Made by a program: the position numbers and the translations under genes. DNA of 64,000 nucleotides, taken from Ruegeria sp. HKCCSA071. Lineage in GTDB: Bacteria; Pseudomonadota; Alphaproteobacteria; Rhodobacterales; Rhodobacteraceae. The stretch's first letter is position 1; the number at the start of each line of letters is the position of its first letter. The stretch lies in assembly GCF_017872555.1 (NCBI RefSeq), contig NZ_JAEDOX010000001.1, forward strand, positions 868,001 to 932,000, written 5' to 3'. The notes beneath the pieces were generated by a model. That model was not told the origin of the DNA, searched no databases, and saw only the letters and a program-made list of their open reading frames with translations. Positions 30,023-37,062 of this stretch are shown here, piece after piece.

Positions 30023-30323
30023 GACTGTCCCTTCCGAACCCCAAGAACCGCAGGAAACCCCGCAGCTACGATTGCTGCGGCGGATGGTCATGCTGCTGAC
30101 CGCGGTGATGATTGGCGGGGTTCTAGTGACATTCGCCCTGATTGTCATCCGCCTATCAGACCGCACCCCCACCCTGCCGGATCAGATCGACTTACCCGAT
30201 GGTGCCCGGGCGCAGGCCCTGACCATTGGATCCAACTGGTATGCGGTCGTTACCGACGACAACCGCGTCCTGATCTATGACAAGACAACAGGAAAGCTGC
30301 GTCAGGAAATCGCCGTCGAGTAA
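30021..30323 (+). CDS. Small single-pass membrane protein (DUF6476-like)
   Basis: About 100 residues. A short Pro/Gln-rich N-terminus is followed by one membrane helix (MVMLLTAVMIGGVLVTFALIVI, near 23-44) and a C-terminal domain with DDNRVLIYDKTTGK, resembling one blade of a quinoprotein-like repeat. I recall conserved small proteins of this type next to pseudouridine synthases in Rhodobacterales, but the function is unknown. Its ATG (30021-30023) shares two base pairs with the opposite-strand ATG of the pseudouridine synthase. An in-frame GTG at 30015 is an alternative. Confidence 0.75.
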   Translation: MTVPSEPQEPQETPQLRLLRRMVMLLTAVMIGGVLVTFALIVIRLSDRTPTLPDQIDLPDGARAQALTIGSNWYAVVTDDNRVLIYDKTTGKLRQEIAVE

Positions 30324-30328
30324 CCGGA

Positions 30329-32236
30329 TCAGTTCGGGAACAGACGGGTGCCGACCCAGGCCTCACCCATCTGCACATCCAGTTCGGGCGTACGCATCTT
30401 GCGTTTTCCGCCAAACGGGCAGAGCGTGATTTCGCCCAGATAAATCTTGTCGCCAATTACATAAAGGTCCACCCGCGCAAACTCGACACGTTGCCCGACG
30501 GCTTCGGCAATTGCGACCATATCGTCAAACACCTCTGGCTTGGGCTCGGTGTCATCGCTTGTCTGGAAATACAACTCTTTCGGGATGAAGTTGAAATCCC
30601 GGTCGTGGATCATCTGCACATGTCCACGAGAGCGGTCCCGGTCGACCTGAACAATCTGGACCTTTCCGGCGACAACCCAGAATTTCCAGTCGATGATATC
30701 CTGACCTTCTGCCGCCAGATCCTCTTCAAGGAAATAGCGCGTTTCGATCGTGGAATACCACCATTCTGCCGCCCAGAAGCCGTGGGGAATGGGTTTATTG
30801 CTCCAATTGGTAAGCTTTTCCTGGGCCAGGTTGCGGTCTTCTGTGTTCATGGGCCAGGTGATCCTGTGGTTTTGCCCCTGCCCGTTATTGCATTTGAGCC
30901 AATAGCTGCCGGGCTCTAGGTCGAGGTCTTCCGGCAACTCAGGCGACGATGAAACCCAATAGCGCTTCACCGGTGTAACAAGGTTCCTGGCTGGTTCTGG
31001 GATATAACTTTCCGCCGTCAACTTATCCGCCGCCGACACTTCGGGCATCTCGGCAAACAGCTTCATGACCAGCATCTTCTCAGTCACGGTCTTGGGGTTG
31101 CTCAAGTCAGGCAAATAGCGCTGATTGTTGGCAAACCTCGACAATGACATAGACATGGCATTCAACCGCAATGCGTCATTGGCATAGTGATCCCAACCTC
31201 GCTGATGACCCGATTGGGGTTTGTCATTCACCCCATAAAGCCCTTTGTCTTTTATCTTATCCAATTCAACCTGGGCCAATTTGAAGAATTGCTCAGAATT
31301 TGCGACCTGAGCTACAGACATCACGCCGTTGGTGGCCTCACTGATTTCCTCTTTGCTGATCCGCAAGTCCGGAAGCGAGTCGGGAAACTCGATTTTCTGC
31401 GGCGCGCCCCGCCCTCTGCGCGGCAAAGGTGCATTGGCAGGACTGATCCCCAAACCGCGCAGCCTTCGATCCAGAAATGAATGACGTTTTACACCCTTGG
31501 CAATCCACCAACGCATCCGACGGCCCCAAAGATGGACGGCCTGCGTCTGATCCGTAAGGTACTTTTTTCGAAACTCCCGCGCTGGAATGTCGTTCGCCTG
31601 CCCCGTTTGCCGAAACGGCAACGGGTAAAACACCGGGGGTGGGCTGGCGTGTTCTATCTCGCCATGATGTCGCAGAAACCACGTCATGACACCGGGTCCG
31701 TAAACACTGTGTGCCTGATCCGAGGCATGAGGCAACTCACCGGCCTTTTTCTGGCGTTCCAGATTCTCGCGTTCCTCACCTTCTACCCAAGGACGGATCG
31801 GGAATGGATCAAGGCTGTATTCCGTATACGCTTTCAGCGCGGGGCTGTCGGACGGCAACCGCATGATCGCATTGCAGATCGTATTGCGATTGAAGAAGCC
31901 GAAAATATGATCCGCTTTCGGGATCGGTTTCAAAGAAATCACATCCGTATCGCACCAGAGAAAATCGGTTTTTTGCATTAGCTGCAGCCTGAAAATATCA
32001 GATTGCGGAACCGGTGTTTTAAACTGGTTGTTCATAATGAACCGCTGCGGTTCGTGAATTTCGTTCGCCGAAACCAGTTCGATACCTTCGGGTACATTCT
32101 CGACTTCGTCATAGTGGAACAGCACGACCCTGTGTCCGTTCGCGACAAAAGACAAAAGGCACATCTGTTCCAGAAAACTGAGAGGACCTTCCAACCAGAG
32201 CATTCCGATTGTGGGAAGAGTATTTTCCGCGGCCAT
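30329..32236 (-). CDS. Glycosyltransferase (GT32-like) fused to TupA-like ATP-grasp ligase
   Basis: 635 residues in two parts. Residues 1-265 form a GT-A sugar transferase with the DXD site WCDTDVISL (D96-D98) and a late HLWGRRMRWW motif, as in GT32-type enzymes. Residues 360-635 match the TupA-like ATP-grasp family: NPKTVTEKMLVMKLF (380-394), a Gly-rich nucleotide loop KCNNGQGQNH (448-457), an acidic pair EE (504-505), DWKFWVV (516-522), and the metal-binding GEIT (601-604). TupA is known from teichuronopeptide synthesis. The protein may thus add a sugar and ligate an amino acid or carboxylate on the same polymer. Substrates are unknown. It is the last gene of a four-gene run. Confidence 0.75.
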   Translation of the reverse strand: MAAENTLPTIGMLWLEGPLSFLEQMCLLSFVANGHRVVLFHYDEVENVPEGIELVSANEIHEPQRFIMNNQFKTPVPQSDIFRLQLMQKTDFLWCDTDVISLKPIPKADHIFGFFNRNTICNAIMRLPSDSPALKAYTEYSLDPFPIRPWVEGEERENLERQKKAGELPHASDQAHSVYGPGVMTWFLRHHGEIEHASPPPVFYPLPFRQTGQANDIPAREFRKKYLTDQTQAVHLWGRRMRWWIAKGVKRHSFLDRRLRGLGISPANAPLPRRGRGAPQKIEFPDSLPDLRISKEEISEATNGVMSVAQVANSEQFFKLAQVELDKIKDKGLYGVNDKPQSGHQRGWDHYANDALRLNAMSMSLSRFANNQRYLPDLSNPKTVTEKMLVMKLFAEMPEVSAADKLTAESYIPEPARNLVTPVKRYWVSSSPELPEDLDLEPGSYWLKCNNGQGQNHRITWPMNTEDRNLAQEKLTNWSNKPIPHGFWAAEWWYSTIETRYFLEEDLAAEGQDIIDWKFWVVAGKVQIVQVDRDRSRGHVQMIHDRDFNFIPKELYFQTSDDTEPKPEVFDDMVAIAEAVGQRVEFARVDLYVIGDKIYLGEITLCPFGGKRKMRTPELDVQMGEAWVGTRLFPN

Positions 32237-32262
32237 ATGCAGTTTCTCCGAAGGCGGGTTTT

Positions 32263-33324
32263 TCAGGATTCAGGCTGTTTTTCGCTGGAAGACGGTTGCT
32301 TGTCTGCCGAAAGACGCGCGTGCAATCCGCGGTCTTTAGCAACAAATTCTACAGCCGGCTTATTAACAAGCGTCTGGTAAAGCGCGTTGTATTCTGGCTG
32401 TTTGAGAAGGTCTTCGATCAACGCCTTGTGCCACAGGAATGCTTTTCGGTGCAGCCGAGCTAGCCGCCCATCGGACTGAAACTCCGCCATCAGTGCGTCA
32501 ACTTCGCCCTTGTACCTGAGGATCGTCTCATCCGTCGCACCACCCCGGTTCCAACGGTCCCAGTATTCCGTTCCCAGCGTCTGGGAGGAGTGGTTGGCCC
32601 GCCCACGGCTGCGCTTGGCCAGATAGGCTTGTGTGGAGCGGACCGCATAGTGATTGATCTGTGCAATCTCAAATCCATAAGGCGGTGCAACATGGTTACC
32701 AAAAGGTGCGGGCTCTTTCGCGTGTCCCCCGGGAACGGACCGGAATACACCTGCCTCAAACTCGGACTTGGGGTGCGGGTTGTGCATACCATAGCGGAGA
32801 TAGACTTCACCCTGCCGGAAAAGCGATTTGACGAACCGGCGCCCCGCCCCGCCCTGCTCATACTCCAACTCACCATCGAAAAACTGCTGCGTCACTGGCG
32901 CGTCGCGCAACACATGGCGACCGCTGTTCGAGAATATCTTCCATGGAATGGAAATGACATCCACGCCCGGTGTGGCCTCGATCAGGTCGTCCACCTTATG
33001 GTTTCCGACATGAATATTCAGAAACTCATCCGCATCGCAGACATAGACCCACTTGGCTTCTTTCACTACGGGCAAACGGCGGGCCTGCCTCAGAGCTGAT
33101 CTGTGAATCCCGCCTGTTCCCACGCGGTTTCTGTGAAACTCAACATGACCCAGGGCCTCAAGACGGCGCAAAATTCTGTTCGTACCGTCCGTGCAATCGT
33201 TGGTGTAAACAATGATCCTGTCGAAGCCCAACACCTTATGATGAGCCACCCATTCCAGAATATATGGGCCCTCATTTTTCATCGCAGAGATGAGGATTTT
33301 TTCAGGCTTGTTCGTCACTGCCAT
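32263..33324 (-). CDS. GT2-type glycosyltransferase (Glyco_tranf_2_4 family)
   Basis: A 353-residue soluble transferase. The N-terminus ILISAMKNEGPYILEWVAHH (10-29) with VYTNDCTDGTNRIL is the signature of the Glyco_tranf_2_4/GT92-like group. The metal and nucleotide-sugar motif is CDADEFL (D97-D99), and HYAVRS follows near residue 223. It is clearly paralogous to residues 1-320 of the 626-residue fusion protein encoded upstream (34104-35984). Only 26 bases separate it from the next gene, so it is part of the run. Confidence 0.82.
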   Translation of the reverse strand: MAVTNKPEKILISAMKNEGPYILEWVAHHKVLGFDRIIVYTNDCTDGTNRILRRLEALGHVEFHRNRVGTGGIHRSALRQARRLPVVKEAKWVYVCDADEFLNIHVGNHKVDDLIEATPGVDVISIPWKIFSNSGRHVLRDAPVTQQFFDGELEYEQGGAGRRFVKSLFRQGEVYLRYGMHNPHPKSEFEAGVFRSVPGGHAKEPAPFGNHVAPPYGFEIAQINHYAVRSTQAYLAKRSRGRANHSSQTLGTEYWDRWNRGGATDETILRYKGEVDALMAEFQSDGRLARLHRKAFLWHKALIEDLLKQPEYNALYQTLVNKPAVEFVAKDRGLHARLSADKQPSSSEKQPES

Positions 33325-33337
33325 TCACCCCAGACGC

Positions 33338-34009
33338 TTAGTCGCCCTGTTTCTTGCTGTCGTCTTGCGGAGTGATTTTTTCTATAGCGATCTGCGCACC
33401 AGCAATTGCCCGGATACGCAATTCACGGGGGTGTTTGCCCAGAAACTCGTTGACGGCCCGGATCACCCCGTCGCCCCACCAACCGCGACGGTGGTAATCA
33501 TCAAACGCCATGATCCCACCCGCTTTGATCTTGGGAAACAACGCCTCCAGGTCCGCAGTTACTCCTTCGTAAGAATGATCCCCATCGACATAGGCAAATG
33601 AAATGCTCTCATCGTCAAAGAGCTTTAATGCCGGCACCGAGAAATCGCGAATGATGCCAACCTTGCCTTCTTCGATCTCTTTTTCGAAGGACGCGACGAC
33701 CTTCTGGAAGATGGCTTCCATCTTTTCGTCTTCGGTCCGGCCGACAAACGCCGTTGTATGCGTTTCCTCGCCAATATGTTTCCAGGGATCGATCAGAAAC
33801 AACTGACTGGGTTCAAGCAATTTCAGGATTGTCGGAGAAAACTCGCCCTGCCAGACACCGATCTCAACAGCCACGCCACCCTTGGGAAGGCGCGTCAGGA
33901 ACGTACGACGGATCGCGTCTTTTGTATTCTTGCGCTTGGTTGCCTTGTCTGCGTTCGGTTTATTCTGGCTGCCGGGAACAGCACCGATCACTCTGGGTTC
34001 GTTTGACAT
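33338..34009 (-). CDS. Class I SAM methyltransferase of the TylF/CmcI (Methyltransf_24) type
   Basis: 223 residues. SAM-binding motif EIGVWQG (49-55), the acidic motif FLIDPW (71-76), the catalytic metal-binding VDGDHSYEGV (141-150) and DDYHR (170-174) all match the metal-dependent small-molecule or sugar O-methyltransferase family. The whole domain aligns with the C-terminal 185 residues of the fusion protein encoded next door, which has lost these catalytic motifs. It starts 94 bases after the fusion gene and ends 13 bases before the GT2 gene. A sugar-methylating role in a surface glycan is inferred. Confidence 0.87.
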   Translation of the reverse strand: MSNEPRVIGAVPGSQNKPNADKATKRKNTKDAIRRTFLTRLPKGGVAVEIGVWQGEFSPTILKLLEPSQLFLIDPWKHIGEETHTTAFVGRTEDEKMEAIFQKVVASFEKEIEEGKVGIIRDFSVPALKLFDDESISFAYVDGDHSYEGVTADLEALFPKIKAGGIMAFDDYHRRGWWGDGVIRAVNEFLGKHPRELRIRAIAGAQIAIEKITPQDDSKKQGD

Positions 34010-34103
34010 CTCGACCTCACTTGCAGACGGGTATTGAATTCACACGAAACCCGTTTTGTTTATTGGGCAATGGCTAACATGTCGTTGCTTCAAGAACCAG
34101 AAG

Positions 34104-35984
34104 CTATGTGTCGTTTTTGGGAAGTGGTGGCAACTTGTCGATACCAAGCCATGGAGGCTCGAGGCTTGTAATCCGATAGTCACTCGCTTTACTCGCAAGA
34201 AAACGGTTAATAGCCGAAGACATTCCGGAATAAGACCCTTTGCCCCGCCTGTAGGATGTAAAAGCGATACTTCCGCCCGGAGCCAGAACCCTGTCGATCC
34301 GGTTCAGCAATTGCAACATGACACGCTCGGCGCGAACGCCGCGTATGATCACGACGCCCACACTTTGATCCTGAAACAGCTTCAGCATCAAAGGCGGCAG
34401 CGCCCGGTAGACCCTCAAACGCCCCGCAATGATCGGTTCGCGGAAGTACTCCAGCAATGCATAGAACGTGCGATCCAGGGCCTGTAGATTACTGTCTTGC
34501 GTCGTATCCTTGCAGGCGAATGTATCCCACGACAGCCCCCATGGCCCGATGATCGTCAATTGAGCAACTGCATCCAATGCGAGTATTTCTTCTACAATTT
34601 CGGTTTCGACATGCCCGATCAAAACCCAGTTCTTCTTGCCGCTGATTGACCGCAAGAACCGCTGTCGCTGCTCTTTCGTTCTTTCAACCTCCGGAGACAC
34701 TGGCGGCAGGAAAGATGGGTCCTTCGGATCGAACGGCAAGTCCACCTGTTTTGCATTAGTGATTAATGCATGCTGCGCCGCCGCTTCTTCGTACTCCATG
34801 GCCGTTCCCAGAGAATCCAGCCGGGTAAACCAAGGGTAGTTATTGGGTTTTGAGTTTTCAGGTTTGGACATCTTGCCCAAGCGCGTCCATTTCGCAACTT
34901 GCGCGAAAGAAACTTCGGGGTCTTTGTAGGTCTCGGCATCAAAGGAAAGATCGCCTTCTTCCATCACGCCCAGATCCAGCGCCTTGATATATCGCCCCCC
35001 GGCAAAATTCTTGTACCGAGTTATGAATCCCTGCGCGGCCTCTGTTTCACGTATCTCCGAGATACGGCGCTTGTGATAAGCAACAGCTTTTTCGTGCAAA
35101 TCTCCCAGAATACGATCCGCACGTAGTTCATCATACGATTTTCCAAGGCGGTCCAATTTGGAAAGGATCGATAATTCTTCAACCTTGTTGAAGCAATGCA
35201 TGTGCCAATAGGCTTGTCCCGTTGCCTCCATCTTGGGATGAAACGCGGTTGTGTTTACATCCCCCCGCAGCCGCTTCATCAGATAACTCTCAATGGACCG
35301 GACGGCATAGTGGTTCATCCTGAAAAACTGCTGCCCAAAGGCCGCGCCAGTCGTGGAATGAGACCAACCGTTTCGCCGCATTGCAGGTGGCAAGGGATCT
35401 CCGTCACCATCGATCCATGCAAAGCTTTCAGCCTTGCCGGCGATTGGGCCACGTGGACGGTGTGTGTTGATTGCCCGATAAGACCCGTTGTTTCTGACAA
35501 GCGATTTGAAGGCACGCACATTCTGCGGCGTAACCACCCCCAACTCTGCTGCAGATGTGAATTGTTCGATCACAAACTTGTCTTCAAACTCGACAATCCC
35601 ATTGTGCCCGAACATCTGCCATATCGCGGCAAAGCCATCTGCTTGTGGAAAGGTGCGAAACAGATCGTCCAGCGTGCCGTCCCCAACACGGATATCGAGA
35701 AATTCATCGACATCACAAACCAGAATCCACTCGGCCTCAGCGTACCAGGGTTGTTCCATAGCGTTCGCATAGGCCGACGCCTGCGGCCCATGCTTCCAGG
35801 GACCGGGGTTATCGATATGCACCAGAAAACCCAGTTCCTCGCATCTTTTCAGGATCGCGTCGGTGCCATCAGAACAGTCATTCGAATTGACTATGAAATG
35901 CGTGAACCCGATCGAAAGGTAATAGGCGATCCATTCAAGGATGAACGGCCCCTCGTCTTTCATCGTTGATATGACAAGTCTCAT
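34104..35984 (-). CDS. GT2-type glycosyltransferase fused to a degenerate methyltransferase domain
   Basis: 626 residues from the ATG at 35984; a TTG five codons earlier is less likely. Residues 1-320 are a Glyco_tranf_2_4 transferase (VISTMKDEGPFILEWIAYY, then CDVDEFLDI with D91-D93). Residues 442-626 align end to end with the neighbouring methyltransferase, for example LKLFQDQS versus LKLFDDES and INRFLASK versus VNEFLGKH. The SAM loop EIGVWQG has become LIGHVET, VDGDHSYEGV has become IRGVRAERVM, and DDYHR has become TSYRR, so this half is probably not catalytic and may bind a partner or glycan. It is the first gene of the run, next to tRNA-Leu. Confidence 0.8.
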   Translation of the reverse strand: MRLVISTMKDEGPFILEWIAYYLSIGFTHFIVNSNDCSDGTDAILKRCEELGFLVHIDNPGPWKHGPQASAYANAMEQPWYAEAEWILVCDVDEFLDIRVGDGTLDDLFRTFPQADGFAAIWQMFGHNGIVEFEDKFVIEQFTSAAELGVVTPQNVRAFKSLVRNNGSYRAINTHRPRGPIAGKAESFAWIDGDGDPLPPAMRRNGWSHSTTGAAFGQQFFRMNHYAVRSIESYLMKRLRGDVNTTAFHPKMEATGQAYWHMHCFNKVEELSILSKLDRLGKSYDELRADRILGDLHEKAVAYHKRRISEIRETEAAQGFITRYKNFAGGRYIKALDLGVMEEGDLSFDAETYKDPEVSFAQVAKWTRLGKMSKPENSKPNNYPWFTRLDSLGTAMEYEEAAAQHALITNAKQVDLPFDPKDPSFLPPVSPEVERTKEQRQRFLRSISGKKNWVLIGHVETEIVEEILALDAVAQLTIIGPWGLSWDTFACKDTTQDSNLQALDRTFYALLEYFREPIIAGRLRVYRALPPLMLKLFQDQSVGVVIIRGVRAERVMLQLLNRIDRVLAPGGSIAFTSYRRGKGSYSGMSSAINRFLASKASDYRITSLEPPWLGIDKLPPLPKNDT

Positions 35985-36174
35985 CGCACCTACCCGCAAC
36001 CTTGGCTCGCAAACTCAGGACGAAGGGAAAAATCGCATCATTGCAGAGGTATCGCGCGCTTCCCGACACCTGGCTTAGTTACGGGCCACGGATTTGCAAT
36101 GCAAGAGAACAGACCAGAACGGCAAAGCCTGCTTCGCGTATGTCAATTTGAATATCACAAGATACGAGAAGATT

Positions 36175-36261
36175 TGGTGCGGTCGAGAAGACTCGAACTT
36201 CCACGGGTGTTACCCCACAGCGACCTCAACGCTGCGCGTCTACCAATTCCGCCACGACCGC
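36175..36261 (-). tRNA. tRNA-Leu (anticodon GAG)
   Basis: 87 bases including an encoded CCA. The acceptor stem pairs GCGGTCG with CGACCGC, the T-loop has GTTCGAGTC, and a long class II variable arm with a GTAA-type loop (TGTGGGGTAACACCC region) is present. The anticodon stem CAGCG/CGCTG encloses TTGAGGT, giving anticodon GAG for Leu codons CUC/CUU. Confidence 0.97.
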
Positions 36262-36285
36262 ACTGCCAGTGACTTGGTAGAGCGG

Positions 36286-36314
36286 CGTATAGACGTTGGC
36301 GCGCGCGATGTGAA
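36286..36314 (-). promoter_or_regulatory. Candidate tRNA-Leu promoter
   Basis: On the minus strand TTCACA, a 17-base spacer and TATACG stand about 25 bases before the tRNA 5' end, the usual arrangement of a sigma-70 promoter for a stable RNA. Confidence 0.5.
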
Positions 36315-36402
36315 GAGGCAAAAACACACTGGTTTAAAAACCTTCGCAGCAGTCTTATCTAAGCCGATGCACAGCGCAGTTTCGATCTGACAGGAGCCTA
36401 AG

Positions 36403-37062
36403 ATGACCTCGACAGACACCCACCCCATCATACAGATCGATATCGTGTCGGACGTTGTGTGCCCATGGTGTATAGTCGGGTTTCGTCAGCTTGATGTGGC
36501 AATGAAACAGCAGGGCATCCAAGCCCAACTTCGCTGGCACCCGTTCGAATTGAACCCGAACATGCCGCCTGAAGGGCAGAACCTTCGGGAACACATCACG
36601 GAGAAATATGGCTCGACCCCTGAACAGAGCCAGCAGGCCCGCGAAAGGCTAACGGCGATCGGGGCGGAATTGGGGTTCACCTTCAACTTTGATGAAGACA
36701 GCCGGATCGTGAATACATTCAAGGCGCATCAGTTGCTGGATTGGGCCGAAGGTCAGGGCCTGCAACATCAATTGAAGCTTGCGCTATTCGACGCGTATTT
36801 CACCCGGCAACAGGATGTTTCCGACACTGAGGTTCTGTTGCAGGCAGTCACTTCTGCAGGGCTGAACCCTGATACCGCACGGCAGGTGCTTGAGACCGGG
36901 GAGCATATCGCTTTGGTGCGAGAGAAACAGCAGTTCTGGACCAGCCGGGGGATCTCTGGTGTGCCGTCCATGGTATTTGGCGGAAAATACCTGCTGACCG
37001 GAGCGCAAGGGGTCGACACCTATTCTCGGGTGCTGCAACAGTGTTTGGCCGAAGCGGCCTGA
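36403..37062 (+). CDS. DsbA-family (FrnE-like) oxidoreductase
   Basis: A 219-residue cytosolic thioredoxin-fold protein with a CPWC motif in [12 protein letters not shown] (residues 15-26), followed by the helical insertion and the conserved cis-Pro region [15 protein letters not shown] (near 186-200). FrnE-type proteins are thiol oxidoreductases; some isomerise polyketides. The substrate is unknown. It ends 41 bases before lipB on the same strand. Confidence 0.9.

Follow-up and report, generated by a model that had tools for sequence, protein, structure and literature searches.

What a methyltransferase domain stripped of its catalytic residues does on a glycosyltransferase, when an intact homolog of that domain is encoded immediately beside it, is the question raised by a gene cluster of Ruegeria sp. 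HKCCSA071. The cluster lies within the window analyzed here, the whole stretch of 64,000 nucleotides from contig NZ_JAEDOX010000001.1 (positions 868,001 to 932,000). Numbered by position in the window, its parts are:

34104..35984, minus strand: fusion protein (P0001), GT2 - linker - pseudo-methyltransferase, 626 aa
34995..35984, minus strand: GT2 domain of the fusion, residues 1-330 (PF13704); NDCSDGT, CDVDEF, and NHYAVRS motifs present
34692..34994, minus strand: linker of the fusion, residues 331-431, rich in proline
34107..34691, minus strand: pseudo-methyltransferase domain (MT_A), residues 432-626; predicted methyltransferase fold, SAM and metal motifs absent
33338..34009, minus strand: free O-methyltransferase (MT_B), 223 aa, PF13578/TylF-like; catalytic residues present
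32263..33324, minus strand: free GT2, 353 aa (PF13704), distant paralog of the fused GT2
30329..32236, minus strand: 635-aa protein with a C-terminal TupA-like ATP-grasp domain (PF14305) and an N-terminal half bearing a GT-like FLWCDTDV motif

From the fusion onward, the four genes are separated by gaps of 94, 13, and 26 bp, and a scan of the 94-bp gap between the fusion and MT_B found no terminator-like site. A preliminary description of this DNA had proposed the order GT2-dead methyltransferase, live methyltransferase, GT2, and GT-ligase, which the window bears out (the last gene being GT-TupA), together with the existence of both modules as free genes beside the fusion (MT_B and the 353-aa GT2). 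The span it gave for the fusion, 33338-35984, does contain the fusion gene at 34104-35984 but also includes the free methyltransferase (33338-34009). Since the NDCSDGT, CDVDEF, and NHYAVRS motifs are kept, the GT2 domain of the fusion is presumably active; it scores 81.2 bits against PF13704 (cut-off 27.5), contains the DxD motif, and has D91, D93, and E94 unchanged in an alignment of fusion homologs. A sequence search of the PDB with the full fusion as query returned no match, and the GT half of a full-length model was uninformative (pLDDT about 30). The linker is the part of the protein that evolves fastest. The fused and free GT2 domains are paralogous, as had been suggested, with 35% identity over 312 aa, but they fall in different, well-separated clades of a GT2 tree and therefore do not stem from a recent duplication; a recent local duplication of both halves of the fusion was rejected on the same ground.

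Pairwise alignment, put forward in the preliminary description as a check and made here with BLASTP, showed that the two methyltransferase domains are homologous: residues 440-620 of the fusion match residues 34-214 of MT_B with 27% identity (E 2e-15). The alignment thus covers most of the neighboring methyltransferase but not, as had been claimed, the whole of it, its first 33 residues being unaligned. A whole-genome search with a profile of the fused domain likewise matched the free methyltransferase gene (E 1.8e-14). Sequence comparison confirmed that the SAM loop, the metal motif, and the DDYHR motif have all been lost. EIGVWQGEFS of the live SAM motif corresponds to LIGHVETEIV in the fused domain, LFLIDPW to LTIIGPW, AYVDGDHSYEGV of the metal motif to VIIRGVRAERV, and FDDYHR to FTSYRR. 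In all 11 genomes that carry the fusion, the SAM positions E49, G51, G55, and D74 of the live gene correspond to L, G (unchanged), T/P/V, and A/G, and its metal acids and catalytic base (D142, D144, H145, D170, and D171) are replaced by R, V, R, T, and S/T. The Pfam methyltransferase score of the fused domain is 14.0 bits, under the cut-off of 26.3. Judged by its sequence, the domain should lack both the usual mode of SAM binding and the ability to hold a catalytic metal, and the loss of these motifs supports the original reading of a catalytically dead methyltransferase domain attached to a GT2 beside its live homolog.

The fold appears to have outlasted the active site. A 210-aa model of the isolated C-terminal domain, built from 47 sequences, reached a pLDDT of 87 and a pTM of 0.85, and the domain is predicted to fold as a SAM methyltransferase; the alignment behind this model included live relatives, so the model supports the fold and not the details of the pocket. 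The PDB structures nearest to it belong to methyltransferases and to related enzymes of the SAM fold, including MeT1 (TM by query 0.63-0.70) and MycF (0.59), and by sequence profile the nearest are NovP, MycF, and related O-methyltransferases. Assignment to the class I methyltransferase fold and family thus draws on the homology to the neighbor (E 2e-15), the model confidence, and the PDB methyltransferases found nearest. Conservation is highest in the core of the fold, with 8 of 9 residues of beta-5 and 6 of 6 of beta-7 invariant.

Of the 54 species of the Ruegeria genus, 10 carry the fusion, as does one more genome from a species collection (L043), giving the 11 genomes considered here; L044, which has the same coordinates as G016, was left out. 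The proteins are 73-79% identical to the window copy, and close relatives of the locus occur in Ruegeria sp. EL01, HKCCD7303, and an uncultured Ruegeria. The proposed survey of fusions and gene order in related genomes revealed the same four-gene order (fusion, live methyltransferase, GT2, GT/TupA) in 11/11. Within-clade pairwise dN/dS for the close pairs listed was about 0.03-0.10 (0.032-0.104) in the dead domain versus 0.016-0.068 in the live gene. The term "decayed," applied to the domain in the preliminary description, is therefore misleading for a domain that is under purifying selection and whose losses are common to 11 genomes. The motif losses were fixed before these genomes diverged, and R-V-R-T at the former active site, identical in 11/11, is held rather than drifting.

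The cassette is flanked by an RluD gene on one side and a tRNA-Leu(gag)/FrnE pair on the other (window 30172-36403), and it occupies this interval in 10 sampled species of the genus. The same flanks enclose other GT2 genes in at least 15 further species, and in one genome (G011) a cassette of quite different gene content. The interval appears to be a site at which surface-glycan genes are swapped in the genus, which is consistent with a role for the cassette in a variable surface polymer. Several further observations concern the cassette itself. The N-terminal half of the 635-aa protein (31337-32236) has no Pfam match and no PDB sequence match, and its DxD-like FLWCDTDV motif makes it a possible candidate for an unclassified glycosyltransferase. 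In relatives this half is 75-85% identical, while the TupA half shows a bimodal identity (74-81% or 45-50%), a pattern suggestive of a domain swap. Between L116 and L119 (G029 and G027), dN is only about 0.03 for the free GT2 and for the live methyltransferase, whereas the fused GT2 (dN 0.14) and linker (dN 0.39) are distant, a contrast that points to mosaic inheritance within the cassette.

Beyond Ruegeria, a family profile was run on 397 genomes of the taxonomic family, nearly all from different genera, and the matching loci were read. Among 58 free methyltransferase entries, the metal site is kept in 57 and the SAM motifs in 57; the exceptions are overlapping pieces of one locus (L144), and all complete entries are intact. 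Fusion of GT2 to methyltransferase has arisen repeatedly, and five genomes (G034, G211, G352, G366, and G388) carry live fusions of the two that share the Ruegeria domain order. A second dead type, with the methyltransferase before the GT2, comprises 20 proteins in 19 genomes of three other genera; its carriers are G377, G473, G372 and its genus (16/21 species), and G283, the last of which encodes two such fusions in tandem (L133:4535-7707), the second also lacking SAM motifs. In these reverse-order fusions the DD pair has become GG, AG, CG, or SG throughout and the base-position His has become Lys in 19/20, while both SAM motifs look intact in 19/20. Acids have been lost and a base gained at the former metal site in both dead families. 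Two reverse-order domains that were checked score above the Pfam methyltransferase cut-off even though the metal site is gone, and automatic annotation would label such domains methyltransferases.

When 79 methyltransferase domains were placed in a tree, the dead domains of Ruegeria grouped with its live genes (support 97/98 in the best tree), on a very long stem of 6-7 changes per site; the dead domains of the reverse-order type joined other live genes. AU tests retained both the placement of the dead domain outside the live and X-type genes (p 0.37) and a tree in which every dead domain belongs to a single clade (p 0.077). Two separate origins are probably a better reading than one, though unproven, on account of the opposite domain order, the different lesions, and the distinct GT2 clades.

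The reverse-order fusions bear on whether a dead domain serves its own GT2 or the live enzyme. In the 18 reverse-order genomes analyzed for rates, 6-12 kb was read, and a live methyltransferase lies directly downstream in nine and is lacking there in nine; whole-genome searches of G372 and G283 found no other strong relative. The median ratio of dN in the dead domain to dN in the GT2, calculated in the large reverse-order genus, was 1.52 with the live gene and 1.62 without it, in a coarse test for relaxation that uses pairwise counts from non-independent pairs within that one genus. The absence of clear relaxation argues against a role that solely serves the live enzyme: within that genus the dead domain persists to much the same degree where no live neighbor is present, and the action on the live enzyme proposed in the preliminary description is at most a possibility. 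These results argue for a domain that works with its own GT2, at least in the reverse-order family. They may not transfer to Ruegeria, where the domain order is opposite; in the reverse-order proteins the SAM site is mostly kept.

The reading tentatively favored, at somewhat less than an even chance, is that the pseudo-methyltransferase is a non-catalytic accessory of the GT2 to which it is fused, possibly also docking the live methyltransferase. Its most likely task would be to hold or recognize the glycan acceptor, using the pocket that once received acceptor and metal; this pocket is predicted to be basic instead of acidic, with R548 and R551 at the sites of the former metal acids. Such a pocket could hold an anionic glycan or a phosphate-linked acceptor for the GT2, and would thereby let the GT2 act on the right chain end, while the live methyltransferase and the GT2 encoded as free genes would act on the same surface glycan. 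Docking of the live methyltransferase by the dead domain may be an additional function; the live gene lies directly downstream in 11/11 Ruegeria-type genomes, an arrangement not needed for action in cis, and this speaks against a role in cis only. A bolder extension, that two lineages independently made a glycan-reading domain by converting an acidic metal site to a basic one, the domain sensing whether the acceptor end carries a methyl group or is anionic and gating elongation by the GT2, is quite improbable at present.

A real but doubtful contender is a prozyme-like partnership, in which the dead domain and the free methyltransferase would form a heteromer, tethered to the glycosyltransferase, with the live enzyme activated or restrained. 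The downstream live homolog (11/11 Ruegeria-type and 9/18 analyzed reverse-order genomes), the grouping of dead and live domains in the best tree (97/98), the oligomeric state of fold relatives (a dimer in NovP and a decamer of dimers in CalS11; PMC4760980), and the precedent of a dead-paralog activator in the trypanosome AdoMetDC prozyme (PMC6221367) all fit a complex of this kind. However, the analogous reverse-order family retains its dead domain equally well without a live neighbor, a four-gene cassette inherited jointly would also give perfect co-occurrence in Ruegeria with no contact needed, and survival of a homodimer interface is not assured at 27% identity and along so long a branch. 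It is unlikely that the domain is purely structural, stabilizing or dimerizing the GT2 with no ligand: the invariant residues of beta-5 (8/9) and beta-7 (6/6) and an apparently intact GT2 domain speak for such a module, but the identical R-V-R-T in 11/11 suggests continued selection on the pocket itself, and many PF13704 GT2 genes of the same genus manage without such a domain. Repurposed chemistry, a metal-independent activity with Lys or Arg replacing the catalytic His, draws on the SAM motifs (19/20) and conserved Lys at the base position of the reverse-order family; the Ruegeria domain, however, lacks the acid and second glycine of motif I and the motif II acid, so that SAM binding is unexpected there. 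The idea is very improbable. Neutral decay, with the domain a degenerate remnant heading for loss, has the motif loss and the long stem branch in its favor and nothing else; strong purifying selection (dN/dS about 0.03-0.10 in the dead domain, far below 1) and a frame open in 11 genomes rule it out, leaving it with scarcely any probability.

A non-catalytic accessory of the GT2 can be set beside three known systems. The first consists of the metal-dependent sugar O-methyltransferases of the TylF/MycF/NovP type (PF13578, PF05711) together with MeT1, an enzyme that methylates the precursor of a mannose polysaccharide (PMC9883506). These share the fold of the fused domain and are linked to it by homology through the free live gene, but the fused domain differs: it has neither SAM motif (I or II), is without the metal acids and the base, and scores below the Pfam cut-off. 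WbdD and Klebsiella O7 ORF6 (PMC11231755, PMC3482155) also bring glycosyltransferase and methyltransferase together, within a protein or a complex, to assemble surface glycans, but there an active methyltransferase is held apart by a coiled-coil ruler, whereas the Ruegeria domain is dead and its linker short and proline-rich. Neither an extended coiled-coil spacer nor an active terminating methyltransferase (11/11 dead) was found in the Ruegeria fusion: no coiled coil was seen in the linker of about 100 aa, where the full-length model, of low confidence in this region, has helices of at most about 13 residues. The glycan-length ruler of the preliminary description, if of WbdD type, is accordingly unsupported, and a coiled-coil ruler was rejected for this proline-rich linker with no long helix in the low-confidence model.

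It is already known that a dead enzyme copy can regulate a live one, although the literature searched yielded no earlier account of a bacterial glycosyltransferase with a pseudo-methyltransferase among its domains. With two fusion families of opposite order and 30 genomes together, cis and trans roles should be separable by comparison and experiment. As in Ruegeria, the dead paralog of trypanosome AdoMetDC (PMC6221367) is encoded alongside the live one; that prozyme activates its partner, as the Ruegeria dead copy might. Unlike the prozyme, the Ruegeria dead copy is fused to another enzyme and has an analogous family that keeps it without a live neighbor.
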